Shown piece after piece: positions 4,105-29,806 of a stretch of 64,000 nucleotides of DNA. The translations under genes and the position numbers were made by a program. The DNA lies in the NCBI GenBank assembly GCA_001798605.1, contig MGST01000016.1:1640-65639 (forward strand), written 5' to 3'. The notes beneath the pieces are model-generated. The model did not search any database. It was given only the letters and a program-made list of their open reading frames with translations, and was not told where the DNA came from. The stretch comes from Deltaproteobacteria bacterium RIFOXYA12_FULL_58_15 (GTDB taxonomy: Bacteria > Myxococcota > XYA12-FULL-58-9). The stretch's first letter is position 1. Each line of letters starts with the position of its first letter.

Positions 4105-4133
4105 TTGACACCGCCAGGGACCCCTAATAGCCT
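4105..4133 (+). promoter_or_regulatory. Possible sigma-70-type promoter of the Glt locus
   Basis: TTGACA at 4105-4110 is followed after 17 bases by TAGCCT at 4128-4133. This is 31 bases before the chosen GTG start of the first Glt gene. The -35 box is perfect; the -10 box matches at only three positions. Confidence 0.4.
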
Positions 4134-4163
4134 CTTGATTGGATCTTGAGCACTGGAGTGGCC

Positions 4164-5036
4164 GTGAATCGGTTACTGTTTTTTATCTCTGCCCTCTTCG
4201 TTGTGGGTGCGTTAGTCTCCGCACCCTCGCATGGTTGGGCGCAAGCTGATGACTCCCTTGACGACGAGCTGGATGCTCCCATCGGTGGTCCGCCACCTTC
4301 TAAGGAGCGCACCAACCCGCCTGCGGGTGATGATTTCCTCGACGACGAGCTCGAGGGCGGGGGCGGCTCCGGCAAACCCGCGGCAGCCCCGGCGGCCGCC
4401 GCGGCCAAAGTGACCGAAGAGGCGAGTGAGGAGAGCCCAGCAGCGCAGGACCGCATCAAAGCAGTGCCGCGCAAGGCTGTTCTCAAGATGGGGCGATTGG
4501 AGCTGGGTGCGTTCGCCACGTTCAGCGTCAATGACGCTTTTTGGCAACACTACGCTGCGAGCGGTTCGGTCATTTACTATCCCCATGATGCCTTCGGTAT
4601 CGGCCTCGGGGTCGACTACATGTATGCGCACGCACGTCAAAGCAATCTCGATGTGGTAAGGCAGACCTTGACGTCCGTGCCGGCCACCTTTGAGAAGCCA
4701 CGGCTTTTTGCGCATCTCGATTTCTACTGGGTGCCCATCTACGGCAAGATAAGCTTGTTCAATACTCAGATTGTTCACTTTGACTTCTACGCGACCGCCG
4801 GTGTCGGTTTCGCGACCTCGTTTGGTTCGGCGCAACCGCCCGCGGTCAACGGCGGCATTGGCCAGCGGTTCTTCGTGAGTGATTGGTTGGCGTTGCGCTT
4901 TGAAGTGCGCAGCCACTTGTTTGTCGACACTGCTGACGTTGAAGGCTTTGAACGTTCTGACGTGCAGAACTACGTCATGGCTATGGCAGGGGTGAGTTTC
5001 TATCTTCCACCTTCATTCGAGTACACCTACAGATGA
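4164..5036 (+). CDS. gltB: Outer-membrane beta-barrel, GltA/GltB-like, first copy
   Basis: The product has a signal peptide (MNRLLFFISALFVV, cleavage near HGWAQA), a low-complexity Asp/Pro/Ala linker with two DDELD-type repeats, and then about 190 residues of alternating aromatic strands ending in a C-terminal aromatic residue region (FEYTYR), typical of an outer-membrane barrel. It is clearly paralogous to the next gene product: both share GRLEL, VPIYGKISLF / SPIYGKLSLL and a C-terminal VSFYLPPSFE / VCFYLPPTFE. In M. xanthus, GltA and GltB are a pair of porin-like barrels in the gliding complex; which copy corresponds to which is not decided here. The GTG at 4164, with GGAG 5 bases upstream, is preferred over an in-frame TTG at 4146. 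Confidence 0.7.
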   Translation: MNRLLFFISALFVVGALVSAPSHGWAQADDSLDDELDAPIGGPPPSKERTNPPAGDDFLDDELEGGGGSGKPAAAPAAAAAKVTEEASEESPAAQDRIKAVPRKAVLKMGRLELGAFATFSVNDAFWQHYAASGSVIYYPHDAFGIGLGVDYMYAHARQSNLDVVRQTLTSVPATFEKPRLFAHLDFYWVPIYGKISLFNTQIVHFDFYATAGVGFATSFGSAQPPAVNGGIGQRFFVSDWLALRFEVRSHLFVDTADVEGFERSDVQNYVMAMAGVSFYLPPSFEYTYR

Positions 5037-5755
5037 TGCCCAAAATCATATTGCTGATTCTGTCACTGGCGTTGCCTGTCAATGCGTGGGCAGCAGAGGA
5101 CGAAGCGGTCCAGGAAGAGGATCTCGGTGCGCGAGCAGGCGCTGGCCCAGAGCGCAAGACCCTCGCCGAACGGATCCCGGCGGTCACCGGCAGAGTGTTC
5201 GCCAAGAGCGGCAGGTTGGAGCTCTCGCCAGGTTTCGGTTTGTCTCTGAACGATCCATTTTATGACCACATTGTGGCCTCTGGGGCGGTTGCCTACCACG
5301 TCACTGAGTGGTTGTGGATAGGTGGTTCGGCGGATTTCTACATTTCGCCATCGAGCACAATTGCCGTTGCCAATCGTGATCCAGAGCAGTTTGACTACAA
5401 CCGGCCTGTCTACACAGCTCGTCTCGAGGTCGGCTGGTCGCCCATTTACGGCAAGCTCAGCTTACTCGCCGAGCAGGTGTTCCATTTCGATACCTATGTC
5501 TCTGCTGGAGTCGGGGTCGTGGGGCCAAGCGAGACCGATGCGACCTTGGCGGGCACCTTTGCCATTGGCGAGCACTTTTTTATCAATGAATGGATGGCGT
5601 TCAAGCTTGAGCTACGGGATCAGATCTTCGGGTTGGCCCGCGCACCCGCAAAGAACAAAGACAAAGAGCTGCAGAACTTCCTGTCAGCAACTCTGGGAGT
5701 CTGTTTCTATCTGCCACCGACCTTTGAGGTTGAGGCAGCAGGTGCTAATCCATGA
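5033..5755 (+). CDS. gltA: Outer-membrane beta-barrel, GltA/GltB-like, second copy
   Basis: The 240-aa protein opens with a clean signal peptide (MMPKIILLILSLALPVNA, then WAAED). A short acidic linker precedes a barrel of similar length to that of its upstream paralogue, with matching motifs GRLELSPGFGLSLND, WSPIYGKLSLL, HFDTYVSAGVG and FYLPPTFEVE near the C-terminus. The ATG overlaps the previous stop by 4 bases (ATGATG), so the pair is translationally coupled and probably made in fixed ratio. Both are inferred to be outer-membrane parts of the Glt complex. The gltA/gltB assignment between the two copies is arbitrary; family membership is more secure than the individual symbol. Confidence 0.7.
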   Translation: MMPKIILLILSLALPVNAWAAEDEAVQEEDLGARAGAGPERKTLAERIPAVTGRVFAKSGRLELSPGFGLSLNDPFYDHIVASGAVAYHVTEWLWIGGSADFYISPSSTIAVANRDPEQFDYNRPVYTARLEVGWSPIYGKLSLLAEQVFHFDTYVSAGVGVVGPSETDATLAGTFAIGEHFFINEWMAFKLELRDQIFGLARAPAKNKDKELQNFLSATLGVCFYLPPTFEVEAAGANP

Positions 5756-8235
5756 TGTCGCGGAACACAGCAGGCGGAGGTGTCGTGACCTACTTGCGAT
5801 CCATCGGCTTGGTTCTGGCGCTGCTCTTCGTTCCCGCAGTGGGACTGCCGAGTGTCAGCGTCGATTCCCACGGACCCGTGCAAATCAAGGGCGACGAGGA
5901 CGGGTCCTCTCTTGTGGCAAAGCGCAAGCGCAGCAAAGGCAAGAACAAGCGCAAGGCCAAGAAACAGGCCAAGAAGACCGAAGCCGACACCGAAGCCGAA
6001 GAAGCGGCCGGTGCCCTCTTTGATACCCCTGCGCCTGTGGGGGAGGGTGGCACTTCTACGGCGCCTGGCCCCGATGCTGCTGTGGACGAGACGACGCTCG
6101 ATCTCAGTGGAGCTGGGACTGACACCGAGGAGGCGAAAAAAGAGCTGCTGATGCGGACGGAGGAGCCCAAAGCAGAGGAAGACACGGGCAAGGGCAAGCG
6201 GCGCAAGAAGAAGAAGCAAGACCCAGGCTCCTTCGATTTTGGTGGTGGCGTGCAGCTCGACTTTGGTGGTGAAGGAATCGACTTTGGTGAAGGCGACCTC
6301 GCCGACTTTGACCTTGAGTTCCAAGTCGATAGCGCTGAGCGGGAGCGATTCGATGAAGCCATGACGAAGATGTCCGATGAGGACTACCCCGAGGCTGCCT
6401 TGGCGTTTCGCACCTTCCTCGAGGATCCGAAATATGGCGAGTTCAAGGGGGAGTCCGAATACCAGCTGGCCAAGGCGCTTTATAAGATGGGATTTCTCGA
6501 TTCTTCGCTCACGCGCTTCAAGACCATCCTCGATCAAGGGCCCGCGCACCGTCGTTATCGCAAGTCGATTGAGTGGTTGTTTTTTATCTCCCGTAAGATG
6601 GCTGACGAGACGCCCGTCCTTGCGGAGCTCGCACAGTTTCGCAATGTCACCTTTCCTAAGGCCTACCGCAATGAGTACTTTTATCTACTGAGCAAGTACC
6701 TGTTCATCCAAGCTGAGGATTTCGAGGTCTCGCGGATGGAGCGGGCCATGATCGAACGGGCGAAGAAGTCGGGTGTCGACAAGCTCGATTTTGATGGCAT
6801 GGACGGCTTCATGGGTGAGGGAGCCTTTGACGCGGCGGGCGGCGGTATTGACTTTGGTGGCGGAGAAGGCGGCGGCTTTGACTTTGGTGGCGGAGAAAGC
6901 GGTGGTGGTGGTGACGACAGTGGCTTCGACTTTGGCTCGGGGGCCAGCGGATCCGACAGTGGCAGCAGCGATGGTGGCGGCGGTTTCGATTTCGGTGGCG
7001 GTGGCGCTGAGGGTGGTGGGGCTTTTGATTTTGGCGGCGGAGGCGAAACAGCGCCGCCCGAGGACGCGGTGGCGAAGGACGCCGGTCCCGTGCGCGAGGC
7101 CGCGCCACAGACCGCCTCTGAGGCGATTCGCCAGGGTCTTGAGCTCGTGGTGCAGGTAGAACAAGAGAGTAAGTTCTATCCCCGCGCCAAGTATCTCGAA
7201 GGGTTGCTCAACTACTTGCGTGGTGGGGCGGGCACAACCGAGGAGGAGCAGAAGGCGCACCAGGCGGCTGTGGCCGCCTTCCAGGAAGTGGTGCGGGTTC
7301 TCAACCCCCGTGAAGCCACGCGGCTCGATCCGCAGCTACGTGAGATGGCGTTTCTAAGCCTGGCGAGAATTCATTACGGCTACCGTCAGTTCAATCGCAG
7401 CGTTTACTACTTTGACTTGATTGATCGTGACTCAGAGAACTGGCTGACCGCTCTATTCGAGGCGTCGTGGGCCTATTATCGCCGTGGCGACTACGAGAAA
7501 GCGTTGGGCAATCTGTTGACCTTGCACTCGCCGTTCTTCGAGAAGGAGTATTTCCCCGAGTCGCAGCTGGTCAAAGCGATTATATACTTCGAAGCGTGTC
7601 GTTATCAGGAGACCCGCAGCATCGTCGATTCTTTCTATGGCCGATTCAAAGACGTCATGAAGGAAATCGAAAAGATCGCTGAGTCAAAGGAGGCACCCGA
7701 GCTTCTCTACGATCGCATTGTGGCGAAACAACAACTGGAATCACAAGAGGGTGCCGGCGACGACGTTGCCCAACGGTTGGTGTCATTGGCGCTCGCCGAT
7801 CCGACAATTCGCACCGCTCGCAATGTTGTGCAGCAGACAAAAGACGATATCGCGATGGCGAAAGAGATGGCAGCCGAATTCCGAGAAGCGCGAATTGGCC
7901 AAGAGGTCTACGACGAGCTGCAGGAGTTGTCGGCACAGAGGGCCCGGGCTGCAGGCGAAGCCACACGTCAAAAATTCGAACGTGAGCTCTTTGACCTCAA
8001 GGGGCTTCTGGCGCAAGCGTTGCGCATCAAGATTGAGGTGGTTTCTGCGGAGAAGGCAGTTCTGCAGGCCAAGATCAAGGGCGAGCCCCCTCCTGATCCG
8101 ATAGTTCCCGCAGTGGCACGTTCGGTGGTCGGGGACGAGCAACTCTACTGGCCCTACGAGGGTGAGTATTGGCGTGATGAACTCGGCACCTATGAGCTCG
8201 ATTTCAGCATGTGTCGGCCGCTGGCAGGTCCCTGA
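5752..8235 (+). CDS. gltC: TPR protein with FDFGGG repeats, GltC-like
   Basis: An 827-aa exported protein: signal peptide near the N-terminus (YLRSIGLVLALLFVPAVG), a Lys/Arg-rich segment (residues about 60-85), an acidic Gly/Asp segment (about 160-190), TPR-like helices (about 200-330), a Gly-rich insertion with FDFGGG-type repeats (about 355-440), and a second helical TPR region (about 455-680), ending in an alanine-rich coiled coil and a short WPYEGEYW motif. It overlaps the upstream barrel gene by 4 bases. Position directly after two GltA/B-like barrels, TPR content and export fit GltC of M. xanthus, a periplasmic TPR protein. The Gly-rich insertions make it longer than I expect for GltC, so the assignment is by context. 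Confidence 0.6.
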   Translation: MMSRNTAGGGVVTYLRSIGLVLALLFVPAVGLPSVSVDSHGPVQIKGDEDGSSLVAKRKRSKGKNKRKAKKQAKKTEADTEAEEAAGALFDTPAPVGEGGTSTAPGPDAAVDETTLDLSGAGTDTEEAKKELLMRTEEPKAEEDTGKGKRRKKKKQDPGSFDFGGGVQLDFGGEGIDFGEGDLADFDLEFQVDSAERERFDEAMTKMSDEDYPEAALAFRTFLEDPKYGEFKGESEYQLAKALYKMGFLDSSLTRFKTILDQGPAHRRYRKSIEWLFFISRKMADETPVLAELAQFRNVTFPKAYRNEYFYLLSKYLFIQAEDFEVSRMERAMIERAKKSGVDKLDFDGMDGFMGEGAFDAAGGGIDFGGGEGGGFDFGGGESGGGGDDSGFDFGSGASGSDSGSSDGGGGFDFGGGGAEGGGAFDFGGGGETAPPEDAVAKDAGPVREAAPQTASEAIRQGLELVVQVEQESKFYPRAKYLEGLLNYLRGGAGTTEEEQKAHQAAVAAFQEVVRVLNPREATRLDPQLREMAFLSLARIHYGYRQFNRSVYYFDLIDRDSENWLTALFEASWAYYRRGDYEKALGNLLTLHSPFFEKEYFPESQLVKAIIYFEACRYQETRSIVDSFYGRFKDVMKEIEKIAESKEAPELLYDRIVAKQQLESQEGAGDDVAQRLVSLALADPTIRTARNVVQQTKDDIAMAKEMAAEFREARIGQEVYDELQELSAQRARAAGEATRQKFERELFDLKGLLAQALRIKIEVVSAEKAVLQAKIKGEPPPDPIVPAVARSVVGDEQLYWPYEGEYWRDELGTYELDFSMCRPLAGP

Positions 8236-8410
8236 GCTGCACAGACCATTGTCCGTCTGGGGGCTTGCGATTCGATGTCATCGGTTGGCTGTGAAGCGTT
8301 TGTCTTTTGGGTTTGGAGTGGGCTGGGTCGCAGATGATGGCGGCCATTTGCGAGGAGTCGGTCGGTCACTCATGGCCGTTCGCGTTTAGGAGCTGAGAGT
8401 GGGAGCTTCA

Positions 8411-11400
8411 ATGTTGCGGTGCTTGCGGCACGCAGCTCTGGGATGGGCGTTGTGTGTCGGAGTGGGTGCGGTCCTGGTGATACCGGCGGTGCCCAATACC
8501 GCCGAGGCGCGGCGCAAAGGCAAGCGCAAAACCAACAAGCGGGGTGCGGACACCCAGAAGCGGGATATCGACAAGGGCTCGCTCGCCCCCAAAGAGGAGT
8601 TCGGCCTCGACGAGGACATTGGCAAGACCAAGAGCCTCAAACCCGCCGCTGAGGACAAGGGTCCTGGACTCGAGGATATCGAAATTGGCCGAGCGCGAAC
8701 TCTGGAAGACGTGGTCGGCGACAAGATCAACGAAGAGATTCGGGTTGCGCAAGAGCTATTGCAGCTGACACCTGGCTGTGATGAGGGAGCGCCGGTCCGT
8801 TTCAGGCTCGCCGATCTCTATTGGGAAAAATCAAAGCGCGCGTTCTTCAAGTCAGAGGACTTCAATTTGGCTGAGGAAAAGCGCAATCAATACATCGCGT
8901 TGATGCGCAAGCTGCAGGGCCAGACCATCGAGCATTATCAGCAAATTATCGACGACTGTCCCGAGTATCCTGACTACGCCCGGGTCCTGTTCTTTCAGGG
9001 ATCGGCCTACATGGAACTCGAAAAATCGTCCGACGGTGTCGGCTTTTTCAAACGGATCATCCAGGACTTTCCCAACTCGGAATGGGTTGGCAACGCTTGG
9101 TTTATGGTCGGCGAGTACTTCTTCAACGACGAGGATGATGCCAATCAGGCATTGCGCGCCTACAAGGAAGCGGAGAGGCACAAGGACTCGCAGACCTTCG
9201 GTTACGCGATTTACAAACAGGGATGGTGCTACGTCAACACGGGTGATTGGGACATGGCGCTCGAGCGGTTCCGTACTGTTGTGCAAACCAGTGAGGACCA
9301 ACGTCTCAATATGGACAAACGTGGCCGCATTGGCCTGCGGCGTGAAGGCCTGAAGGACTTCGTACGCGCTTACGCCAACATCGGTGACGCGAAACAGGCC
9401 TTCCGCAGCTTGCTCAAGGTTGGTGGCAAGGATGACGTTGAGTGGATGATGGAGGCCCTCGGCAAGTGGTACATTAACAATGATGCTCACAATGACATTA
9501 TCACCGTTTACAAGGAGCTCATCAAAAATTATCCGAAGTCTACGCGGCTGCCGCTGTTCCAGGGCCGCATTGTCAACGCAGTAAGCATTCTTGACAAGCG
9601 CGCGGTGGTAACGCAGTCGAAGCTTCTCACTGAGTATTTCGAGCGCACCCGTCAGCGATTGGCATCCGGCGAGTTCGACAAGGATCAAGAAGCCAAAAAG
9701 AGGGTCATCCGCGATATTAAAGAGGCTGAGGAGATTGCCGAAAACACTTTGCGTGGCCTGGCCATGGAGTTCAACAAGGACGCCAAGAAACTGTCGCGCG
9801 GCACCGCCAGGGATCGCACCTTCAAGATTGCCCATGATCTTTACAAGCACTATCTCGTGGTCTTTCCCGAACCGATACCAGGCGCAGAAGTCAACTACGT
9901 CTTCTACATGCGTTTCTACTATGCAGAGGTACTCTTCGAACTCGAGAATTTTGAAGAGGCGGCCAAGAATTACGACCTTGTCGTCGACATGGATCCGAAT
10001 CCACCAAAGAAGAAAGAGAAGGACATAGTCCTCGCCGCGGCCGAGAACTCGGTGCACGCCTATCGGGAGCTGGTGGAGGATCTAGACCGCAAGAATCCAC
10101 CACAGATCAGTGGCACAGAACCTAAGACGATTCCCGAGATTAAGTCGAAGTTGATCAACGCGTGCCAACGCTACATCAAGTATGTGGGCTCTGTGGGTGA
10201 CAAGATCGTTGAGATCCGTTACCTGGTTGCTTACATCTACTACACCTACAATCACTTCAGTGAGGCGGCGCCAGCCTTCAACGACATTGTCTCCAACCAC
10301 CCGGGCCACGACCGTGCGTGTTTTGCAGCCAACCTCACCTTGGACATTTACAATGGCGCCAAGAATTACCGCGCCCTCAAGGAAACCGCGCGCACCTACG
10401 TAGACAATAAGGCTCTCGCCTGCGGTGAAGGCGACCGCACAAAGTTTGCGCAGATTGAAGAGCGTTCGTCGTTTACTCTCATCAAAGTTGAGCTCGAAGA
10501 CAACCACAAGAATCTCCAGGCGGCGAAGGCGTATCTCGAGTTTTACAAGCAGTTCCCGAGCAGCGAGTCGGCTGATGACGCCGTCTACAATGCCGCGTAC
10601 AACTACGACGTGGCCCAACGACTCGACAAGGCCAATGAGGTACGTGAGTTCCTCGTTAACAAGATGCCGAATGCGGACAAGAACCTCGTACAGGAGACCC
10701 TATTCAACATTGCCGCGAGCTATGAGCGCATCGTCGACTTCGAGCGGGCCGCGCACTACTTGGAACTCTACGTGCAGAAGTATCCCGACGACAAAAAAAG
10801 CAAGGACGTCTTGTTTAACGCCGGCCTCTACCGCGCGACACTTCATGATTTCTCAGGCTCGCGGCGCAACCGCGACCAGTTCATACGCAAATACAAGGAC
10901 GACAAGGAGCTGGTTCAACAGGTGAGTTCCTCCATTTGTGAATCCTTTGAGAAGGAAGCTGAGCTCTTCGAGGCCGGCGAATCCGATCAACGTGCCGTTG
11001 TCAAAAAGTGGGAAGAGGTCAATGACTGCTACTTCAAGTATTCGAAGACCTATGAGGGCAAGGACGATGACGGCGTCTGCCACGCACAGTTCCGCCGCGG
11101 CGAGATCATGCGGACAAAGACCAAGTACGCCAAGGGGTATGCGGAACAGGCGAAGTTTCTGGTGAAGAACTGGCCAACGTGGAAACGGCGCAACAAGATG
11201 GAAGATCTTCCTCGGTGCGCTGCTGCCGTGGCAGAGATCGAGCTACGGGATTTAACGCCTGAGCTGAAGAAATACAAAGAGCTCCAAATTTCAGAGGTGA
11301 ACCCGAGCGAAAAAGGGATGGCGAAGTTCAAGGCATCAACAAAAGCAAAAATTGATGCGCGGGATGCCCTCATCAAGAAATATCAAGACGTCGCAGCCTA

Positions 11401-11971
11401 TGGGGAAGTGGTCTCCGCTGCGGAATGGGCGCTGGCTGCGCTTTACTATATTGGTGAGTCCTATCTGAATTCGGTGAAGGTGTTGTTAGACGCACCGATT
11501 GTCCAAAAGGTTCAAGGCGTCAAAGTGCCCGAGGAGATCAAGGCTGAGCTGACCGCTCAGCTCAAAGACCAATCATTGCCCATCGAGGAATCTGCCGTTG
11601 AGGCTTATCGAGTCTGTGTCAATACCGCCAACCGGCTCGGGGTTTACACGCAGTGGTCGGTCAAGGCTCTCAAGCGGCTCCAAGAGTTGCGACCGGAGGA
11701 GTTCCCACCAGCCGACGAGCGGTTGGTCGAAGTCAAATTCGTTGACGCACTCACGGTTGCTACCAACGACATCGTCATCTCAGACGGCGATTCGTGGAAA
11801 CCGTTGGGTGCGGTGGTGGCAGCCGATGGGATGAAGCCCGGCGACATGAAGAAGGAAGATCCCAAGAAGGAACCAAAGATTGACAAGGACGACGGCGGCG
11901 AAGAGAAAACTGACAAGGACACCAAAGCGGCCAAGGGTCAACGCGGGCGCAAGCGTGGTCGAGCGAGATGA
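8411..11971 (+). CDS. gltD: Large exported TPR protein, GltD-like
   Basis: The 1186-aa product starts MLRCLRHAALGWALCVGVGA with a signal peptide ending near TAEA, then a Lys-rich stretch, then almost continuous TPR/Sel1-like helical hairpins (for example YPDYARVLFFQGSAYMELE, NPGHDRACFAANLTLDIY, YPDDKKSKDVLFNAGLY) to about residue 1000, and a charged Lys/Asp tail. It is predicted periplasmic. It is the first gene of the block that matches gltD-E-F-G-H-I-J order. The ATG at 8411 has GGGAG 5 bases upstream, better than the GTG four codons earlier. It follows the GltC-like gene after 175 bp without a gene and overlaps the next gene by 4 bases. The symbol rests on order and architecture. Confidence 0.65.
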   Translation: MLRCLRHAALGWALCVGVGAVLVIPAVPNTAEARRKGKRKTNKRGADTQKRDIDKGSLAPKEEFGLDEDIGKTKSLKPAAEDKGPGLEDIEIGRARTLEDVVGDKINEEIRVAQELLQLTPGCDEGAPVRFRLADLYWEKSKRAFFKSEDFNLAEEKRNQYIALMRKLQGQTIEHYQQIIDDCPEYPDYARVLFFQGSAYMELEKSSDGVGFFKRIIQDFPNSEWVGNAWFMVGEYFFNDEDDANQALRAYKEAERHKDSQTFGYAIYKQGWCYVNTGDWDMALERFRTVVQTSEDQRLNMDKRGRIGLRREGLKDFVRAYANIGDAKQAFRSLLKVGGKDDVEWMMEALGKWYINNDAHNDIITVYKELIKNYPKSTRLPLFQGRIVNAVSILDKRAVVTQSKLLTEYFERTRQRLASGEFDKDQEAKKRVIRDIKEAEEIAENTLRGLAMEFNKDAKKLSRGTARDRTFKIAHDLYKHYLVVFPEPIPGAEVNYVFYMRFYYAEVLFELENFEEAAKNYDLVVDMDPNPPKKKEKDIVLAAAENSVHAYRELVEDLDRKNPPQISGTEPKTIPEIKSKLINACQRYIKYVGSVGDKIVEIRYLVAYIYYTYNHFSEAAPAFNDIVSNHPGHDRACFAANLTLDIYNGAKNYRALKETARTYVDNKALACGEGDRTKFAQIEERSSFTLIKVELEDNHKNLQAAKAYLEFYKQFPSSESADDAVYNAAYNYDVAQRLDKANEVREFLVNKMPNADKNLVQETLFNIAASYERIVDFERAAHYLELYVQKYPDDKKSKDVLFNAGLYRATLHDFSGSRRNRDQFIRKYKDDKELVQQVSSSICESFEKEAELFEAGESDQRAVVKKWEEVNDCYFKYSKTYEGKDDDGVCHAQFRRGEIMRTKTKYAKGYAEQAKFLVKNWPTWKRRNKMEDLPRCAAAVAEIELRDLTPELKKYKELQISEVNPSEKGMAKFKASTKAKIDARDALIKKYQDVAAYGEVVSAAEWALAALYYIGESYLNSVKVLLDAPIVQKVQGVKVPEEIKAELTAQLKDQSLPIEESAVEAYRVCVNTANRLGVYTQWSVKALKRLQELRPEEFPPADERLVEVKFVDALTVATNDIVISDGDSWKPLGAVVAADGMKPGDMKKEDPKKEPKIDKDDGGEEKTDKDTKAAKGQRGRKRGRAR

Positions 11972-13650: not shown

Positions 13651-13782
13651 GTTTGGTGTGCAAAGATTCGCTGGTGCCAAGGTCCGGATCGGCAAGCCAC
13701 AAACGATGTTTGTATGTGGATCCGCCAGAATTGTGGGGACCTGTCGCACCCCGTTTTCGGAGTCCTGAGTGTGGTGGGGTTG

Positions 13783-13812
13783 TTGGGGCCAAAGTCGTCC
13801 ATGGTGTATACT
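13783..13812 (+). promoter_or_regulatory. Possible internal promoter before the GltF-like gene
   Basis: TTGGGG at 13783-13788 and TATACT at 13807-13812 are separated by 18 bases and lie 26 bases before the GltF-like ATG, in one of the longer gaps of the locus. Confidence 0.33.
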
Positions 13813-13837
13813 GGGACCCAACCAAGTGAGGAGTGCC

Positions 13838-14101
13838 ATGAGGAGAATAGCTGTTTTGATTCTGTTTGCGGCTCCGATCGCCTTGGCCCTGATGTTGGTC
13901 GGGGTGTCCGCGCACGCTCAAGAGGAAGTCATCTTCAAGAAACATACAGTGGTCGATTTTGGCGATGACACGATCGACGGCAACCTTTCAAAGCCCGACG
14001 GGGCGTACCTCGAGAGTCGCAAGACACAGCGACACCAGCGGCTGATCAAGGTGCGTGAGTCGTTCCGGCCCGAGATTCTGCAATCGGTTCGGGTGCTGTA
14101 A
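13838..14101 (+). CDS. gltF: Small exported protein, GltF/CglF-like
   Basis: An 87-aa product with a signal peptide (MRRIAVLILFAAPIALALML, cleavage near VSAHA) and a short mature part with the conserved-looking line FKKHTVVDFGDDTIDGNL, then RKTQRHQRLIKVRESFRPEI. Small proteins of this pattern sit between gltE and gltG in myxobacterial glt clusters (annotated GltF or CglF, from memory) and are periplasmic parts of the complex. The start at 13838 has GAGGAG 5 bases upstream. Size, export and exact position between GltE- and GltG-like genes support the call. Confidence 0.7.
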   Translation: MRRIAVLILFAAPIALALMLVGVSAHAQEEVIFKKHTVVDFGDDTIDGNLSKPDGAYLESRKTQRHQRLIKVRESFRPEILQSVRVL

Positions 14102-16858: not shown

Positions 16859-16899
16859 CGGCGGTAGGTGCCAGCCCCTTGGTGTCTACCGCCGTTTTT
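16859..16899 (+). terminator. Rho-independent terminator after the GltH-like gene
   Basis: Perfect 9-bp stem, cggcggtag (16859-16867) with ctaccgccg (16886-16894), an 18-base loop and then TTTTT (16895-16899). It lies in the 322-bp gap between GltH and GltI and divides the locus into two transcription units. The rest of the gap holds no gene I can support. Confidence 0.85.
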
Positions 16900-20100: not shown

Positions 20101-23100
20101 ATGTGAGCCGCGCGGCGCTTGGCGGACAAATCGCCGAGGTGCTCGCCGATAGGATGCAGGATCTAGCCGGTGCCATCGCTGAGCTCACATCGGTGGCGAA
20201 GGTTGCCCCCGGTCAACGGCTGGTGTGGCAGCGCTTGTATGATCTGAATATGCGAGCCGCAAAGCCCCAAGAGGCCGCATTGGCGATGCACAAGGAACTC
20301 GGGCTGTTGCCGGAGGGTGACGATAGACAACGATGCCTCGTGACCTACGCAAACGTCGTTGGAATGCAACTCCACGACGTTGGAACTGCGGTGCAGGCGC
20401 TCAAGGGTGTTTTGCATAGCGACACCAAGCATGTCGAAGCCGTCGCCCTGTTGGAGCAATTGAGTCAGGCCGCGACCGATCCCGCGGTGGCGAACGAGAT
20501 AAGTGATCTACTCCTGCAGAGCTACCTGGCCATGGGAAAATGGGCTGAAGCGGTCATGGCCATTGCCGCACGGCTCGAGGTCGCCACGGACAAAGACGTG
20601 CGCATCGAGCTGTACAAACAGTCGGCGACCCTAAAAGCTGACAAACTCGATAACGCCGTCGGTGCCTACGCTGACCTAGAAAAAGCATTTCGTGACCAAC
20701 CCACAGACACCGATCTGCGTGCCCGTCTCGAGCGGTTGGCGGAAACTGGCAATGCCTGGGAACAGCTGGCCGAGGCCTACAATGCGGCACTCGGGGTGAT
20801 TGCGGATCTTGAGGCGCAAAAACCGATCCGCCGCAAGCTCGCCGAGGTCCTCGACAAGAGGCTCGGAAGGGGTGCCGAAGCCATCGAGCACATGCGCGCG
20901 GCGACTGGAGGCGCGCTGCCAGAGGATCTTCCATCCCTGGAGTCAATGGAGCGGTTGTTGCGTGAGCAGGGACGTCAAGCCGAACTCGCCGATGTGCTCT
21001 ATGCCATAGTCATACAGCTTGGCGCAGAGCAAACCCAACGCCGACAGACAGTGCTGCTCGACCTCGCCGGGTTGTGCGAGACGGTTCTCGCCGACAAACA
21101 ACGAGCCGTCGAGACATATCGTGCCCTCTTGGAAATCGACGCCAAGGATGAGCGGGCGTTGCGTCCACTCGATCCACTTCTCGAGGAGCTTGGCCGCCTG
21201 CAGGAGAGGGCGGATGTGCTCGAGGTCATGGTTGCTAAAGGTGCACAGAACCCGTCCCTGATTGATGACCTGATCAAGCTCGCCAGGGTGCAGGTGCATC
21301 TCGACAAACCCGAGGAAGCCGTCAAACATTTTCGCGCTGTGCTACTCAAGCGCCGCGAGCAGCCTGATGCGATAGAGGGATTGGAAACCCTGCTCGACAC
21401 CGCGACCAACAAATTGGAGATCGCACAGATTCTCGAGCCGATTTACACGGCAAAACAAAATCACGAGAAGCTAGCGATGGTGTTGGAGGCGCGTCTCACA
21501 GCGACTGAGGACAAGGTCCAGCGCAAGGGCCTGCTGCGACGGATTGGCGACATTTTTGAGAATCGCCTCAATCAAAAAGAGCGTGCCTTTGCCATGGCCC
21601 GCCGATCTCTCCATGAAGACCCGTCCGACATGGGCGTGCGCATGTGGATCGAGAAACTCTCAGGTGAAACAGGAGCGTTGAGTGACCTCGCAGAAGCCTA
21701 TGTGGAAGAAGCGCAGTCCGCAGAACCACAACTGGCGTTACAGTTCCATCGCCGTGCCGCAGCCATTTACCACGAGAAGCTCAACGACGTGAATGCGGCG
21801 GTGCGAGAGTACAACGCCATCCTCGATGTGGAAGGCAGAGATGAGAAGGCGCTGACCGGCCTCGAAGGCATCTACCGCGCCAGCGAAAATTGGGTTGATC
21901 TCATTGTGTTGTTGCGTCGCCGGTTGGATATGACAGCGGGTTTGGAACGCAAGCGCGAGTATCTGACGGAGATCGCCGAACTCCAAATCGGCAAGCTCAA
22001 TGAGGGGCTCGACGCGGTGGCGACCTATCGCGAGATCCTCGAGATATCACCCGATGACACGGTTGCATTTGGACGCATTGAGCAGACTCTGGCGCAGATG
22101 GGACAATGGGAGAAACTCGCCGGAGTGTACGAGGCAGAGGTGCAGCGCCTTGGCGAGAAGCGCGGCCGCGATGTTGCTGCCCGTCGGCTCGAGTTCACTT
22201 ACCGCCGCGGTCGAGTGCTCGACGAGCAGTTCAATGAACGTGAACAGGCCCGTGAGATCTTCGAAGGAATTCTCGGCGAAGAGGCGACGCACGGGTCGAC
22301 GATCCATTACCTTGAGGCGCGGGCCAATCAGGGGGTGCTTGAGGCAATAGAAATACTCGAGTCGGTCTACCAGAATGCCGAAGCGTGGCAGAAATTTGTC
22401 GCGCTGCTCGAGGTCAAGCTCAACAACACGGCGGAGACTGAGCGTCGCCGGGCGATCTATGTTGCCTTGTCCGAGACTTACGACGACAAGTTGCATGTCG
22501 GCGACATGGCTTTTCAGGCTCTCACCCGAGCGCACCAGGAAGACCGCACCAACTTTGAGATCGTAGAAAGGCTCGAAGAACTCGCCGGCCGTTACAACGC
22601 CTGGCGGAATCTTGTGGCGGTACTCAGCCCTGACATTGACGCCATTCCAGATCCGAAGGTGCGACAGCACATTCTGCGTCGCATCGGTGCCATAAGCGGC
22701 GAACATCTTGGCGACGTGCAGACTGCTGTGCAGTACTTCCAGGCCGCTCTGCAATACGATCCAAACGACGATGACTCCCTGGCGGCACTCGACAGCCTTC
22801 TCGAGAAGAATGAGATGTGGGCAGCACTCGCAGATCTTCTCGAGCGTCGCATCGATTTGGCCACCGAGCCTGGGGTGAAGAGTCGGCTTTTGGAGCGCCT
22901 CGCCGAAGTCTGGTCCGATCGGATGATGGATGCCGAAGCGGCATTGCGTTGCCATCAGCAGATCCTTGAGATCGATCCTGACCACCCAATCTCGCTCAAG
23001 TCGATGCAGAAGCTCTACGCAGAGGTCCAGGACTGGGACTCGTTGGCCAAGAACTTGGCTCGTCAGATTGAGGTTCTAACCGACGACGAAGACCAGGTTC

Positions 23101-26100
23101 GCATTCACGCCGCCGCCGGTCAGCTCTATGCCGAAGAGTTGTCCGACTACGATGCCGCCATTGAGCACTGGAAGGCGGTTGTTGACCTAGATCCGACTCA
23201 TGTTGAGGGCAACGATTCGTTGCGTGTCCTACTCAATACTGAGGAACGTTGGGAGGAACTGGCCGAGCTCTATCACAAACAACTGGCACACGCCCAGGAT
23301 CCGCTTGCCAAGTCGGAGATCAATCAAGCACTCGGTGTCATCCTTGGTGAGAAACTGGGCCGCACGGACGACGCCCTCACCAGTTGGCTGGATGTTTTGG
23401 TCTCCGACGCGAAGAATGTCGGTGCACTGCGAGCCCTTTTGGGCCTCTACACCGAACGGGCGATGTGGGAGGAGTTCGTGGATGTCGCTCGGCGGATGAT
23501 TCCCCTGACTGATCCGGTCGAAGCCAAGGAGGTTCGTTTCCTGCTTGCCAAAGCGTTGGGGGAGAACCTCGGTGAGAAGGATGAGGCAGTGAAGCTTGCT
23601 CGGGAAGTGCGGGCAACGGAGCCTCACACCGCCAACCAGATGACCCGGTTAGCGGAGATGCTCAAGAACATCGAGGTCTTCGATGAGGCGGTCATAGCCT
23701 TGGAGAAGGCGGCCTCTCTCGAGGAGAACACCGACGTCAAGGTCGCGCTGTTTTACGAATCTGCCGAGATTCATCGGGAAAAGCTCAGCAAACCCAACGA
23801 TGCACGTGTTGCCTATGAGGCCATTCGAGAGGCCGTTCCGGAAGATGGGGCCGCCTTCACGGCTCTCGCAGAGATTTATCGAAACACCGAGTCGTGGCGC
23901 AAGCTCGTGGCGCTCGACGAAGACTTTGTTCCCTACGCCGATGACGCTCTGCGATTGACGATTCTCACCGAGATTCGTGACGTTCAAGATCAGAAGCTCG
24001 GCGAGAAGGAGCTCGCATTCATTGCAGCCTGCCGGGTGTACAAGGAATCACCAGATGATTCGGCGGCGGCGGATGCTCTCGAACGCCTAGGAATTGAAAC
24101 CGATGGGGCCGAGGAACTGGTTGCGGTCCTCGAGGATGAGATCGAGCACATTGTCAGTCCTGACGCCAAGGTGGCGGTATTCAGACGGGTGGCGCGGATC
24201 TATGCCAAGAATCTGGACGACACACCATCAGCGGAGGGGACTCTCAATCGCATTCTTGAGATCGATCCGGGTGATCTCACAGCACTGGATGAGCTTGCTT
24301 CCCTTGGCGCTGTTGAAGAACGCTTCGACAAACAGGCTCAAGCCCTAGAGAAGAAGCTGCAACATGTGGTTGAGGACACTGACCGCAAAAGCGTGCTCTT
24401 TGAGATCGCCCGCATTTGGGAAGAGCAAATCGGCGAAATTGACGAGGCCATTGGGGCCATGCAACGAGTACTCGAGATCGACGGTGCCGATCTCAAAGCC
24501 CTTGATGGTTTAGTCCGACTCTATGACCAGGAATCCCGTTGGTCAGAACTGGCTTATACGCTCACTCGCAAAGTCGAACTAGCCAAAGATACGTCAGACA
24601 ATGTCGAACTGCGCATGCGGGTCGCGGCTCTCTGCGAGGGAGATCTTGGCGATCCAGAGGCTGCGGTCCAGTGGTATCGCGGTGTTCTCGATTTCGACGC
24701 GGGTCACGTTGGGGCACTGTCGGCGCTCGAGCGACTCTACACTGGCCAAGAGGCCTGGAGTGAGTTGATCCAGACCTTCGAGTTGCAGTTGGCCAATACT
24801 GTCAATGTTGATCACAAGATAGCAATCTTGGCCAAAATGGCGTCGATCTACGAGGAGGAGTTTGAGAGCGCCAAGGATGCAGCCGCTAGCTACGAACGCG
24901 TTTTTGAGTGCGACTCGACAAACATATCGGGGATCAAAAACCTTGAGCGGCTGTTGCGTGCTCTTGGCGAGTGGCAGCGACTCATCGAGGTATTGCAGCA
25001 CCACATCTCTCTCGCGAAGGAGGCTGAGGAGATCACCGAACTGTATCTTCAGGTGGGTGAGGTCTACTACCACGAGCTGTCGCAAGTCGATAAGGCGGAG
25101 CAGATTTACAATGCTGCTCGTGACTTCAACCCGAACAGCGCTGCAGCGCTGCATGCGCTCGGCCAGCTCTATGAGCGCAGCGGCAACTGGTTCCAATCAC
25201 TGGAGATGTTGCAGAAGGAATCTGAAGCTCTCGGGGCCGTTGATGCCGCCCTGCCAGTCCTGTTGCGGATAGGCAAGATCAACGAGGACATGTTGATGGA
25301 TATGGGTGCCGCGCAAACCGCATATCAGCGGGCCCTCGAAATCGATCGCAACTACGGGCCAGCTCTGCAGGCGATGAAGGAGATCGCCCGGGCTGCCGAG
25401 GATTGGGACACTTACGCAGAGCATCTCATCGCGGAAGCTGAGAGCTCCGATGACGCAGAGGACAAAACGGAGCTCTTCTACGAAGCGGCCAAGTTCTACA
25501 CGGACGTTCGCGAGGACGAACAATTGGCCATTCGCTACTTCCAAAGGTCGCTGGAGATAACTCCTGGGCACTTCGACAGTGCGCGGGCCCTTGCTGAGAT
25601 CTATTTCCGCAATGAAATGTGGCAGGAGGCTGGCGATCTTTACGAGATAGTGGTCTCCAAGCTCGACAAGGCCGACGATCCCAAGGAGTACTGCCAAAAG
25701 AACTATCGACTTGGTTATGTTGCAGAGAAGCTGGGTGAGGTGGATACGGCGCTTGCTTTCTATCGCGAAGCCTTCGAAGCTGACGCGACGTACCTGCCAG
25801 CCCTCGAAGGTTTGGGCCAAGCGTTATTGGGAGCCGAGGAGTGGGAGGAGGCGCAGAGGGTTTTCGGCACCATTCTTGTGCATCATCGCGATTCACTCAC
25901 GGAGTCTGAGATCGTGGATGTGCAGTGGCAGTTGGGCGACATATGCTTGAAGCAGGACCAACCTGACCGCGCTTACAAACAGTTCGAGAAGGCCCTAGAG
26001 ATCGACCCCGATCACAGTCCTTCGTTGTCGGCGCTGTCGCAGCTCGACCAACGTATGGAAAATTGGGAGGGGGCGCATGAGAAGTTGAGTCGACTGGCGG

Positions 26101-27752
26101 ATGCTGTGGCAGGGACTGAGCGAGGCGAGGTCCTGCTCCAACTCTCCGACATCGCCCGCAACCGCCTCGGCGATATTCGCAGGGCGGTTGAAGCTCTGGA
26201 GCGGGCGCGGCGCATGGGCCAACCACCCGTGGCGGTGCTCGATCTGCTAGCCGATGCGTATCTGGAAACTCATCAGGCTCCCAAGGCCGTCGAGGTTCTG
26301 GAGCAGGCTTTGACTGCGACCACGGACCATGAGGTTCTCTCTGATTTGAGCTTCAAGCTCGGTCGAGTGTACCAGACCGAGATCAAGCACGAACCATTGG
26401 CGGTACAGAAATACAACGCTGCGCTCGATCATTCGCCGAAGAACGTCAAAGCGTTTGAGGCGGTGGAGAAGATTCTCTCCGCTCGTCAAGAATGGGGTCT
26501 GTTGGAACAGAATTATCGTGCCATGATTGCCCGTGCGAAGGATCTCAATCCACAGATTCGACTGGTCTTGTGGCGCAATCTGGCTGAGCTGTATCGCCGT
26601 GTCATGAAGTCGGTCGACAATGCGATTATGGCCTACGAAGTCATTCAGAAGTTGGAGCCGGGCAAACCAGAAGATGTGGCGATCCTGGCTGAGCTCTACG
26701 CCGAGAAGCCAGAACATCGTGCCAAGGCGATCCAGATGGAGCACGACGTGCTTACGTCGGTTGAGAATCCGGTGGGGCCAATTCACAAGCTGCGTAAGCT
26801 CTACCATGCGCAACGCGAGTTTGATGCGGTCTATGTTCTGTGCAGCGTGCTTTCGTTCCTCAAGGAGGCTGATGCCGAGGAACAAAAGATCCGAGAGTAT
26901 CTCGCCCAGGGTGTGCCACCGAAGGCCACGCAGCGTCTGATCGACGATCAGTGGCAGCTGCTCTACCACAAGGATCTGATGAACCCTGTGGGGACCTTGG
27001 CGACCTGGCTGTATCGCAGTGTTCCGGAACAGTTTACCTCACCCGCAAAAAACCTCGGGTTACGCCCTAAAGATCAGGTCGATTGGCGTTCATCAACTCT
27101 GCTCTTTGCCAACATGATGCGGTACGCGGCGAAGATGCTCAATGTGCAGGCGGTGGAGCTGTTCTTCAAACCCGGCTCCATGGAGGCCATGCAGATAGCG
27201 CCATCCCAGCCGCCAGCGTTGGTGGTTGGGGAGAAGAGCGAGTTGCGGCAAGGGGCGACGCAGCAGGCTGTTCTCTATCATGCGGGTAGAGCCTTGGCCT
27301 ATGTGCGTCCTGAGATGTTCCTGCCGCGGGTCATTCCTGGGGACGACCTACGCGACGTACTTCTGGGTATGTGTTTGGTCTACAATCGCGGGCTGCAACA
27401 CAACGGAGATCCGCAGGCCGTGGAAAAGTGGACACAGCAATTCGAGCGGTTGCCGTCGCAGATTCTCAAACGGCTGCAACAGCCAGCCCGTTTGGCCTAT
27501 CCTGAGCTGGTACAGGGGCGGGGCCTGGAGGCTTACGCTGCTGCGGTGGAGATCACCGCGTCACGAGCGGGGCTTGTGGCTTGCGGGGATCTCGCCTCGG
27601 CAGTCCAGGGTGTGACTGAAGGGGGGCCTGGGGCATCCAGTTTGCCAACGCGGACGCGAGTCAAGGAGTTGGTACTCTATGCTGTCTCCAGGGAGCATCT
27701 GCAGATTCGCAAGATTATTGGAGCTGCTTTGGTTGAGCAACAGCAAGGGTGA
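17106..27752 (+). CDS. gltI: Giant TPR protein, GltI (AgmK)
   Basis: The product is about 3548 residues, nearly all degenerate TPR-type helical hairpins of 34-40 residues (for example AAYERVFECDSTNISGIKNL, YKQFEKALEIDPDHSPSLSA), repeated several dozen times, with many units ending LEIDP or similar. It ends in a non-repeat domain (about residues 3290-3548, with LRPKDQVDW, HAGRALAYVRPEMFLPRV, TASRAGLVACGDLASAV), which has a zincin-free, helix-rich look and is unlike the repeats. There is no signal peptide, so it should be cytoplasmic. GltI (AgmK) of M. xanthus is likewise a giant TPR protein, of about 3800 residues, encoded just before gltJ. The ATG at 17106 (MSDVQNYLETL) is chosen over an in-frame upstream ATG that would add unstructured sequence. 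No frameshift is seen over more than 10 kb. Confidence 0.85.
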   Translation: MSDVQNYLETLVQQPGDETALSAVESTYSTEGRWEELLRVYEDNALRAQSELVPALLRKAASLCLEQIGSAPRAEAYLSRAIEVAPADLESLAALRAIHMGRGEYERGLAVYEKELARVADPTEKALGLVEAAKICREKLGRDDKALALLRQAQRADKELPSVFGLMAEIYEGQGRLDQARKTLLAEIEVGGPNDDVLARLGTLAQRLLERPKFHDLAKGAADTILQHRPDDAAALSVRQELDAVRVSWQTRAIDLEKQAGTTQGINKEKAAALWLAVGELQLVYGEDADTALLSLNKAIACKPGQPDALRLLEEVYAAQDRYEDLALKLEMMAAYAREPALAVELYLKAAMHYTVRLDNPEASAGIHQRVLELDPGNKVSSNALAEYFRERQQWDQALSVLSAWAQRATQVGDKVAAHYACCRIWEEEVGDKLRARPHYETILALDPENQAAALALEAVYRDASDHEALARALRGKLAGLQGEDRITALRELGDLYAGPLERPKEALEILGELYQLQPSAGLRERLEEYAAAAGAFAELVHVLEGGFEHIVDDGDRIGALHSLAALYEGARESPLEALRVHRRILTINAEDPRAKESLERLLQAAAESGDKLAIYREQADAAGTKEEKLSILEKLAKELVDTARDYIRAIDVFREILKLAPEHVRAIEGLLNLYRRDNRWAEVADVLLQKVDKLPASQRIPVHLELGQINERLGETDRAVDWYLACLRGDSNNEQAALGLERLLSRAKRVVVIAEALQPRFSNAGQWDKTVAMLEIRIKATEDPKQRAELLRNVGTIVESKLNQPQAALAALLRAFQSDPSDSGLQVELERLAAQVGDFGPVARAYRTLASSLHGEDRARTIIRAASASHKAKDLTGATVDYVTAIGVSDKIDKSAFDGLKMLLGGGINGQDIVAAVGKVASGVEQSQQGAFWRKVARFYEQEMNSTTDAIEAWKQVLASHDGDAEAAAEIDRLYASGAEPADLVAHLRTKLESAPDDVSRAALGGQIAEVLADRMQDLAGAIAELTSVAKVAPGQRLVWQRLYDLNMRAAKPQEAALAMHKELGLLPEGDDRQRCLVTYANVVGMQLHDVGTAVQALKGVLHSDTKHVEAVALLEQLSQAATDPAVANEISDLLLQSYLAMGKWAEAVMAIAARLEVATDKDVRIELYKQSATLKADKLDNAVGAYADLEKAFRDQPTDTDLRARLERLAETGNAWEQLAEAYNAALGVIADLEAQKPIRRKLAEVLDKRLGRGAEAIEHMRAATGGALPEDLPSLESMERLLREQGRQAELADVLYAIVIQLGAEQTQRRQTVLLDLAGLCETVLADKQRAVETYRALLEIDAKDERALRPLDPLLEELGRLQERADVLEVMVAKGAQNPSLIDDLIKLARVQVHLDKPEEAVKHFRAVLLKRREQPDAIEGLETLLDTATNKLEIAQILEPIYTAKQNHEKLAMVLEARLTATEDKVQRKGLLRRIGDIFENRLNQKERAFAMARRSLHEDPSDMGVRMWIEKLSGETGALSDLAEAYVEEAQSAEPQLALQFHRRAAAIYHEKLNDVNAAVREYNAILDVEGRDEKALTGLEGIYRASENWVDLIVLLRRRLDMTAGLERKREYLTEIAELQIGKLNEGLDAVATYREILEISPDDTVAFGRIEQTLAQMGQWEKLAGVYEAEVQRLGEKRGRDVAARRLEFTYRRGRVLDEQFNEREQAREIFEGILGEEATHGSTIHYLEARANQGVLEAIEILESVYQNAEAWQKFVALLEVKLNNTAETERRRAIYVALSETYDDKLHVGDMAFQALTRAHQEDRTNFEIVERLEELAGRYNAWRNLVAVLSPDIDAIPDPKVRQHILRRIGAISGEHLGDVQTAVQYFQAALQYDPNDDDSLAALDSLLEKNEMWAALADLLERRIDLATEPGVKSRLLERLAEVWSDRMMDAEAALRCHQQILEIDPDHPISLKSMQKLYAEVQDWDSLAKNLARQIEVLTDDEDQVRIHAAAGQLYAEELSDYDAAIEHWKAVVDLDPTHVEGNDSLRVLLNTEERWEELAELYHKQLAHAQDPLAKSEINQALGVILGEKLGRTDDALTSWLDVLVSDAKNVGALRALLGLYTERAMWEEFVDVARRMIPLTDPVEAKEVRFLLAKALGENLGEKDEAVKLAREVRATEPHTANQMTRLAEMLKNIEVFDEAVIALEKAASLEENTDVKVALFYESAEIHREKLSKPNDARVAYEAIREAVPEDGAAFTALAEIYRNTESWRKLVALDEDFVPYADDALRLTILTEIRDVQDQKLGEKELAFIAACRVYKESPDDSAAADALERLGIETDGAEELVAVLEDEIEHIVSPDAKVAVFRRVARIYAKNLDDTPSAEGTLNRILEIDPGDLTALDELASLGAVEERFDKQAQALEKKLQHVVEDTDRKSVLFEIARIWEEQIGEIDEAIGAMQRVLEIDGADLKALDGLVRLYDQESRWSELAYTLTRKVELAKDTSDNVELRMRVAALCEGDLGDPEAAVQWYRGVLDFDAGHVGALSALERLYTGQEAWSELIQTFELQLANTVNVDHKIAILAKMASIYEEEFESAKDAAASYERVFECDSTNISGIKNLERLLRALGEWQRLIEVLQHHISLAKEAEEITELYLQVGEVYYHELSQVDKAEQIYNAARDFNPNSAAALHALGQLYERSGNWFQSLEMLQKESEALGAVDAALPVLLRIGKINEDMLMDMGAAQTAYQRALEIDRNYGPALQAMKEIARAAEDWDTYAEHLIAEAESSDDAEDKTELFYEAAKFYTDVREDEQLAIRYFQRSLEITPGHFDSARALAEIYFRNEMWQEAGDLYEIVVSKLDKADDPKEYCQKNYRLGYVAEKLGEVDTALAFYREAFEADATYLPALEGLGQALLGAEEWEEAQRVFGTILVHHRDSLTESEIVDVQWQLGDICLKQDQPDRAYKQFEKALEIDPDHSPSLSALSQLDQRMENWEGAHEKLSRLADAVAGTERGEVLLQLSDIARNRLGDIRRAVEALERARRMGQPPVAVLDLLADAYLETHQAPKAVEVLEQALTATTDHEVLSDLSFKLGRVYQTEIKHEPLAVQKYNAALDHSPKNVKAFEAVEKILSARQEWGLLEQNYRAMIARAKDLNPQIRLVLWRNLAELYRRVMKSVDNAIMAYEVIQKLEPGKPEDVAILAELYAEKPEHRAKAIQMEHDVLTSVENPVGPIHKLRKLYHAQREFDAVYVLCSVLSFLKEADAEEQKIREYLAQGVPPKATQRLIDDQWQLLYHKDLMNPVGTLATWLYRSVPEQFTSPAKNLGLRPKDQVDWRSSTLLFANMMRYAAKMLNVQAVELFFKPGSMEAMQIAPSQPPALVVGEKSELRQGATQQAVLYHAGRALAYVRPEMFLPRVIPGDDLRDVLLGMCLVYNRGLQHNGDPQAVEKWTQQFERLPSQILKRLQQPARLAYPELVQGRGLEAYAAAVEITASRAGLVACGDLASAVQGVTEGGPGASSLPTRTRVKELVLYAVSREHLQIRKIIGAALVEQQQG

Positions 27753-27789
27753 GGTCGAGGTCAAATGTTGAAAATTCGGGACCATGAAT

Positions 27790-27819
27790 TTGACGTGACC
27801 GAGTCGGGTACGCTAACCT
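27790..27819 (+). promoter_or_regulatory. Possible promoter before the GltJ gene
   Basis: TTGACG at 27790-27795 and TAACCT at 27814-27819 with an 18-base spacer lie 49 bases before the GltJ ATG, in the 116-bp gap after GltI. The -10 box is weak. Confidence 0.28.
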
Positions 27820-27868
27820 CAGCTCCAGTAGTCTTTTTGACGAACCGGGGAAGAGACATCTTTTTCAT

Positions 27869-29806
27869 ATGAAGTTTACATGTGATCAGTGCAACGCCCA
27901 ATACATGATTGCCGACGAGAAGGTCGGCGCCAAGGGTGTTAAGGTCAAGTGCAAGAAGTGTGCACACATCATCATTGTCAAGCCAGCAACCGCTGAAGAG
28001 CTCAAGGCAGAGAAGTTCGAGTCAAATGTGGGCGGATTCGGTGGGTTCAATGAGCCTACCCAAGCAATGTCCGCAGATCAGCTCGCGGCACTCAAGGATT
28101 CCTCTGGTGAGGGAAATGGTGGTGACCTGTTTGGAAATGATCCGTTTGCGGCGTCTGGCGATCAAGCGCCTGTAAGTGATGCCCGATTCGGTGGTGCCGC
28201 AGGTTTTGGCGGCGCGAGCCCAAGTTTCGGTGGTGACGCTCCGAGCTTTGGTGGTAACGCTCCGAGCTTTGGTGGCGTTGCGAGCGAATCGTCCATCTTT
28301 GGTGGTGATACGGGTTTTGGCCAAGCCCCAAGTTTTGGTAACGCCTCTGCCGGTTCGCAAGTACCTGCCGACGAACCAGGAAGTGCTTTTGGTGCCAATT
28401 TTGGTGCAGGCTTTGGCGACAGCGCCAACGCCTTTGCTGGTGGTTTTGGCGGTGCCAATCCCTCTTTTGGTGGGCACCAAAGCGGCGAAACGGCGTTGGA
28501 TTCACTAGGGGCGGATACCTCCGCCCTGGCGCCTTCGATGAGGGCACCGGGTGAGAAGGAATGGTATGTGGCTGTCGATGAGGCTCAGATCGGCCCTGTC
28601 GATATCGCAGAAATAGAGCAGCGCTGGGATGCCTTGGAAGTAGACGAGGACACCCTAGCCTGGAAGTCGGGAATGCAGGACTGGGTTCCCGTGGCAGAGA
28701 TTGCTGATCTCGCCTATCTGGTGACCGAGCGGCCGCAGAGGAAAGCCGCTCTTGGTGCCGTGCCGAGCGCGACTTCAGGTGGATCTCTTGGTGCCATCGC
28801 CTCCACCGGTCTCGGGCCGGTAAGCTTTGGCGGCGAGACGGGGGGTGGTGGTAATCGCGGTGGGGATGTGTCCTGGACTCCGTCTGCTGCCAGTGCTCTG
28901 TCGTCGTTGGTCCAAGACGAGTTGACCACGAGTCCCGCCCAGCCAGCGGCAGTGCCTGCACCGACTCCCTCAGACATGGGAATGCCGAGCTTTGGTGCCA
29001 GTGACCTATTTGGCGGTGCCAGTGGCGGTGCTGCTATGGCCATGCCAGCACCAATGCCCGCGGCAGATCCCTTTGCCGGTGGTGGTGGCGGTTGGTCGGT
29101 TCCCAAGCCAGAAGCAAAATCGAGCGGCCTCAAGCCCATTCACTTGGCTCTCGCCGGAATGGCGGTGCTGTTGGTGGGCTTGGTCGTTGTTGTTGTGTTG
29201 GTGGTCCTGCGGCCTCCGGTAACAGTGCCAGGTGAGCCCATCAGAAACCCAGAACCGGTGGGAATGTTGGCAGCCAACGATCCAAAGCCCGTCCCGGATC
29301 CGCAGCCCGAAAAGCCAGTTACGGAGTCCAAGGTCGAAGATCCCGGACCAGGCTCTTCTGACGATGAGTTGGGCAAGGGACGACGCAAGAGGAAAGGCGG
29401 CTCGGTTAATCCAAGCCCTGCACCGTCTCCGACGCCCCCGAAGGTTACGCCAACCAAGCCGCCTAAGGGTCCCGCAGACGACATCTTCAAGAGCGCGGCG
29501 AAGGCCTCGCTGTCCAAGGCCGACATTATGAGTGGCGTCAAGAATGGCATGGGGGCAGTGAAGGACTGCATTCAGGGTGCCCGTGGCAAGGGCGAGCTGA
29601 CCCCAGGTAAGCACACTCTGGTGCTCAAGTGGACCATCAAGGCCAATGGCAAAGTCGTGGATCCTTCAGTCATAGGTCCCAATTACGTTCTTGGCACCTC
29701 GTTGCCTGCGTGTTTTGCTCGGGGCATGCGCACGTGGACATTCCCGGCGTCACAGAGCGACTCGCCAGTTAAGAACTTCCCCTTCGGTCCATTCAACATC
29801 CACTAA
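27869..29806 (+). CDS. gltJ: Zinc-ribbon, GYF and TonB-like domain protein, GltJ (AgmX)
   Basis: A 645-aa protein with domains in the order of GltJ. An MJ0042-type zinc ribbon uses Cys 5, 8, 28 and 31. A Phe-Gly-rich linker with SFGG/GFGG repeats covers about 50-210. A GYF-type domain (about 229-285) carries EWYVAVDEAQIGPVD and WKSGMQDWVPV. A Pro/Gly linker follows, then one membrane helix (about 421-447, LALAGMAVLLVGLVVVVVLV), a Pro-rich periplasmic spacer and a C-terminal AgmX/PglI TonB-like domain (about 540-645, KDCIQGARGKG, LVLKWTIKANG, RTWTFPA). In M. xanthus the cytoplasmic part of GltJ is reported to engage the MglA GTPase. It is the last gene of the locus. All expected domains are present. 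Confidence 0.9.
   Translation: MKFTCDQCNAQYMIADEKVGAKGVKVKCKKCAHIIIVKPATAEELKAEKFESNVGGFGGFNEPTQAMSADQLAALKDSSGEGNGGDLFGNDPFAASGDQAPVSDARFGGAAGFGGASPSFGGDAPSFGGNAPSFGGVASESSIFGGDTGFGQAPSFGNASAGSQVPADEPGSAFGANFGAGFGDSANAFAGGFGGANPSFGGHQSGETALDSLGADTSALAPSMRAPGEKEWYVAVDEAQIGPVDIAEIEQRWDALEVDEDTLAWKSGMQDWVPVAEIADLAYLVTERPQRKAALGAVPSATSGGSLGAIASTGLGPVSFGGETGGGGNRGGDVSWTPSAASALSSLVQDELTTSPAQPAAVPAPTPSDMGMPSFGASDLFGGASGGAAMAMPAPMPAADPFAGGGGGWSVPKPEAKSSGLKPIHLALAGMAVLLVGLVVVVVLVVLRPPVTVPGEPIRNPEPVGMLAANDPKPVPDPQPEKPVTESKVEDPGPGSSDDELGKGRRKRKGGSVNPSPAPSPTPPKVTPTKPPKGPADDIFKSAAKASLSKADIMSGVKNGMGAVKDCIQGARGKGELTPGKHTLVLKWTIKANGKVVDPSVIGPNYVLGTSLPACFARGMRTWTFPASQSDSPVKNFPFGPFNIH

Follow-up and report, generated by a model that had tools for sequence, protein, structure and literature searches.

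A contiguous gltB-to-gltJ locus in a Myxococcota genome, orthologous to the Myxococcus Glt gliding transducer and probably ancestral in layout

The Glt gliding transducer of Myxococcus xanthus is encoded in two clusters, G1 (gltD-J, MXAN_4870-4862) and G2 (gltK-B-A-C, MXAN_2538-2541), the first gene of G2, MXAN_2538, being known both as gltK and as cglC (PMC4488436). A related machine, the Nfs spore-coat system (nfsA-H), occupies one contiguous cluster of GltA-H paralogs that contains no GltI, GltJ or GltK. Homologs of G1 and G2 have been described as grouped in four Anaeromyxobacter genomes (Luciano et al. 2011, PMC3169522). In the Anaeromyxobacter loci compared in the present study (L084, G026, G040), gltB-A-C-D-E-F-G-H are contiguous and gltI-J lie nearby.

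The window analyzed here, a stretch of 64,000 nucleotides on contig C16 of a 6.37-Mb Myxococcota metagenome-assembled genome (MAG; 381 contigs, 92.6% complete), carries ten genes on the forward strand between positions 4164 and 29806, in the order gltB-A-C-D-E-F-G-H-I-J. NCBIfam, Pfam and HMMs built from relatives bear out the original prediction that ten genes in one orientation match the Glt complex in both type and order. If a divergent gltK-like gene upstream of gltB is counted, the locus shares with M. xanthus Glt eleven components, together with the internal orders B-A-C and D-E-F-G-H-I-J and the domain layouts. The two blocks, separate in M. xanthus, are adjacent here, and an IS1380 element separates the gltK-like gene from gltB. 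The most probable reading, to which we assign a probability of roughly 85%, is that the locus is an ortholog of the Myxococcus Glt gliding transducer, with a one-piece layout that is most likely ancestral and was broken up in the Myxococcaceae.

Gene identities were established by two kinds of model. Profile HMMs made from relatives, with one Myxococcus genome included and the window's own proteins among the training rows, were run as a six-frame search and ranked every one of the ten genes top as its own Glt family (GltD 1426, GltG 851 and GltI 4534 bits). This ranking places the Glt identities far beyond chance, and the independent curated models concur: GltC, GltH and both barrels (TIGR04565) score above the NCBIfam cut-offs, and GltE, GltF, GltG and GltJ match below them. 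The two outer-membrane beta-barrels are told apart by the HMMs of relatives, gltB (4164-5036, +; TIGR04565 105.7 bits, cut-off 60) scoring 325 as GltB versus 184 as GltA, and gltA (5033-5755, +; TIGR04565 114.7 bits, cut-off 60) 306 as GltA versus 188 as GltB. They are followed by gltC (5752-8235, +), a periplasmic TPR protein that matches the equivalog model NF033756 at 476.3 bits (cut-off 450). These NCBIfam matches exclude an origin of the 4164-8235 products in unrelated outer-membrane or TPR families.

The second block opens with gltD (about 8411-11971, +), a TPR protein with a signal sequence, and continues with gltE (11968-13650, +), a TPR lipoprotein with the lipobox FVGC (NF033758 129.9 bits, below the cut-off of 225; HMM of relatives 548 bits), and gltF/cglF (13838-14101, +), an 87-residue exported protein (NF033764 83.2 bits, below the cut-off of 90; HMM of relatives 114 bits). 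For gltE and gltF, positions in the Glt order and the HMMs of relatives agree. The gltG product (14136-16103, +) has the expected architecture of an FHA domain (PF00498), a transmembrane helix and a TonB-like C-terminal tail (NF033768, 116.9 bits), and matches NF033760 over its full length at 476.7 bits, below the cut-off of 650. The outer-membrane barrel gene gltH/cglE (16103-16783, +) scores 121.9 bits against NF033755 (cut-off 70). Overlaps of 1-4 bases at the B/A, A/C, D/E and G/H junctions favor co-transcription.

Downstream, gltI (17106-27752, +) encodes a cytoplasmic TPR protein of 3548 residues that, besides its 4534-bit HMM match, reaches 1254 bits by phmmer against GltI of a Myxococcus genome. 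The final gene, gltJ (27869-29806, +), combines a zinc ribbon and a GYF domain, both detected by Pfam, with a transmembrane helix and a TonB-like C-terminus (NF033761 222.9 bits, below the cut-off of 450). Its zinc ribbon and GYF domain match the PDB entries 7z3c (7.5e-17) and 7zok (2.9e-14), both of the M. xanthus Adventurous gliding motility protein X (AgmX). Domain architecture, phmmer and PDB matches uphold the strong calls that had been made for GltG, GltI and GltJ. The 322-base gap between gltH and gltI contains a strong intrinsic terminator (16859-16894, +), with a 16-pair stem followed by TTTTT and an RNA-fold z of -4.17; a terminator sought at the same junction in relatives was for the most part not detected and is not clearly common to them. 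Because of this terminator, gltB-H and gltI-J probably form two transcription units in this genome, as judged from sequence features. The view of gltA/B/C as fused in front of gltD-J therefore stands for gene order and gives way for a single transcription unit, gltI-J being probably separate. In the Anaeromyxobacter-type genome G026, the corresponding interval holds ∼8 kb of other sequence.

Upstream of the ten genes lies an eleventh gene that was absent from the original list, a gltK/cglC-like gene for a cysteine-rich outer-membrane lipoprotein (1462-1908, -), divergent from gltB and matching the CglC model NF033754 at 25.7 bits, short of its cut-off of 60. Relatives, too, have a divergent gltK-type gene at this position ahead of gltB, as does a Myxococcus genome (L048:3869-4387, 198.9 bits). 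The gltK-like gene is adjoined in tandem by a second gene whose translation is a cysteine-rich lipoprotein (524-1480, -); this product matched no NCBIfam model, and similar genes in the same tandem order are kept in the nearest relatives (G172, G168, G169). It is a candidate additional gliding component. The IS1380-family insertion, the one copy in the genome, carries a transposase gene (2186-3607, -; NF033539 233 bits, cut-off 180) and a companion ORF (3607-3951, -), which together cover 2186-3951; a search for terminal repeats of the element found none. Like the terminator between gltH and gltI, this insertion had not been on the original list. It occupies the gltK-gltB divergent region, the expected place of a shared promoter. 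Elsewhere in the window, a TPR lipoprotein (46462-48507, +) weakly matches the outer-membrane-exchange protein TraC (39 bits, cut-off 500).

Since no curated GltD model exists, the orthology of GltD was addressed with a paralog tree of GltD-like proteins gathered from six genomes. The tree has four deep clades, which correspond to the M. xanthus Glt (G1), Nfs (G3), G4 and G5 systems; these labels rest on the Myxococcus genome G122, whose GltD copies were assigned by inference to the published clusters from their relative order and neighbors, the mglB-linked copy, for example, being taken as G4. The window GltD falls in the Glt clade together with Myxococcus and Anaeromyxobacter GltD (100/99 support). 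GltC and GltD, the calls that had leaned more on context, are accordingly confirmed, the former by its equivalog score and the latter by this tree. Each of the other clades contains one member from the same genome, on contigs C245 (Nfs-like), C277 (G4) and C271 (G5), and C245 carries a separate Nfs-like cluster in the order B-A-C-D-E-F-G-H. The GltD tree excludes that this locus is itself the Nfs cluster, and so do its GltI and GltJ genes.

Genes for mglA, mglB and AglRQS-type motors are found elsewhere in the genome. Contig C277 encodes MglB (PF03259, 63.5 bits) with an adjoining mglA-like gene, recognized on visual inspection from sequence and position, beside a G4-type core (GltC', D', E', F') that comes with an R-Q-S motor of its own, plus genes for a GltG-like protein and a CRP-like regulator. 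In the relative G172, mglB likewise adjoins GltC'/D', and in the Myxococcus genome G122 it lies ∼4 kb from the G4 GltD. A second AglRQS-like motor lies on contig C327, with GltF-like and GltG-like genes behind it and periplasmic TPR genes absent. The genome thus has two paralogous R-Q-S motors, one of them beside mglBA.

Orthologs of the dedicated motor and of the adhesin were not found in this assembly. In a tree of ExbB-like subunits, each of five comparison genomes contributes one protein to a clear AglR clade, and this 92.6%-complete MAG contributes none; the ExbB and ExbD matches in the MAG are all explained by other systems, with no AglRQS ortholog. The best CglB match in this incomplete MAG reaches 32.5 bits against a cut-off of 200; Anaeromyxobacter is also reported to lack CglB (Luciano 2011, PMC3169522). 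Given the completeness of the assembly, these absences are not proof of true absence. They nonetheless weigh against the gliding reading, as do the sub-cut-off scores of GltE, GltF, GltG and GltJ, and relatives in the same family and order possess an AglR ortholog. It is improbable, on our estimate, that the dedicated AglRQS was lost and that the full Glt transducer is driven by a paralogous motor (C277 or C327) through a re-pairing of modules. The description of the locus as complete holds for the envelope part, where the gltK/cglC-like gene had additionally been overlooked, and is overstated for AglRQS and CglB, whose orthologs were not found in this incomplete assembly.

The missing AglR and CglB orthologs would also fit a Glt-derived machine with a non-gliding role, for example moving or depositing surface polymer, comparable to that of Nfs in spore-coat assembly, in which an almost identical set of genes works in sporulation (PMC3169522). 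Such a role is nevertheless unlikely: the window GltD clusters with Myxococcus GltD and not with NfsD, orthologs of Nfs, G4 and G5 exist separately in the same genome, and the locus includes GltI, GltJ and a gltK-like gene, all of which are missing from Nfs. The locus is real and orthologous to Glt, and by analogy with M. xanthus, gliding is likely in this organism.

The layout was compared across 174 Myxococcota genomes by joining the best GltC and GltG hits in each genome. In 32 genomes, representing 14 families, gltC and gltG lie ≤16 kb apart on the same strand. Named contigs suggest that family f18 corresponds to the Myxococcaceae group; within f18, the two genes are 0.6 to 8.3 Mb apart in 20/20 genomes with both on one contig. 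The GltC and GltG hits of many further genomes fall on separate contigs and are scarcely informative for either layout. Gene-by-gene maps reveal full B-to-J runs in families f7, f14, f17, f28 and f29, and in f11 with one barrel, so that the same order recurs in other families of the phylum. Among named contigs, those of Anaeromyxobacter have gltC directly before gltD, and those of Myxococcus xanthus AM003, Corallococcus, Archangium and others have no gltC upstream of gltD. The separation of gltA-C from gltD-J that had been stated for M. xanthus agrees with a distance of ∼3.2 Mb in the Myxococcus genome G122. The suggestion that contiguity might be a new arrangement fails, the Anaeromyxobacter grouping having already been described (PMC3169522) and B-to-J runs occurring in several families: the arrangement is already known, and outside the Myxococcus family it is common across the phylum. 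Its occurrence in 14 families supports the idea, also part of the original prediction, that the layout may be ancestral.

The nearest relatives (G172, G168, G169) keep gltB-H in one stretch, in G169 with ∼7 kb between gltC and gltD. In none of the three was gltI-J found beside gltH, and G169 has gltI-J on another contig. This displacement would be expected if the contiguous order of the window had arisen by secondary joining in this lineage. We consider that history unlikely: the identical order is present in numerous distantly related families of the phylum, and a history with one split in the Myxococcaceae, and with gltI-J relocated in some relatives, requires fewer events than repeated identical joining. 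With the split clusters being a feature of the Myxococcaceae, contiguity is probably ancestral; the simplest reading is that it was broken in the Myxococcaceae and that gltI-J moved in some other lineages.

By extension from the M. xanthus model, the products of the locus would form a path for force from the inner membrane to the substrate, and force transmission, coupling and gliding itself are attributed to this organism on that basis. GltK/CglC would aid the insertion of the GltA and GltB barrels into the outer membrane, GltC, GltD and GltE would span the periplasm, and GltH and GltF would complete the envelope path. Inner-membrane GltG would couple to an AglRQS-type proton-driven motor, while cytoplasmic GltI and inner-membrane GltJ, with its zinc ribbon and GYF domain on the cytoplasmic side, may link the complex to the cell interior that MglA controls, and MglA would engage the machine from its cytoplasmic face. 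The motor would then drive GltG, and the periplasmic TPR proteins would relay the force to the barrels in the outer membrane, from which it would reach the substrate at adhesion sites that stay fixed.

The one-piece Glt locus described for Anaeromyxobacter is now extended to many uncultured Myxococcota families, and against this background the separate clusters of M. xanthus appear to be derived. The four paralogous systems of that species (Glt, Nfs, G4 and G5) are ancient and occur far outside the genus Myxococcus.
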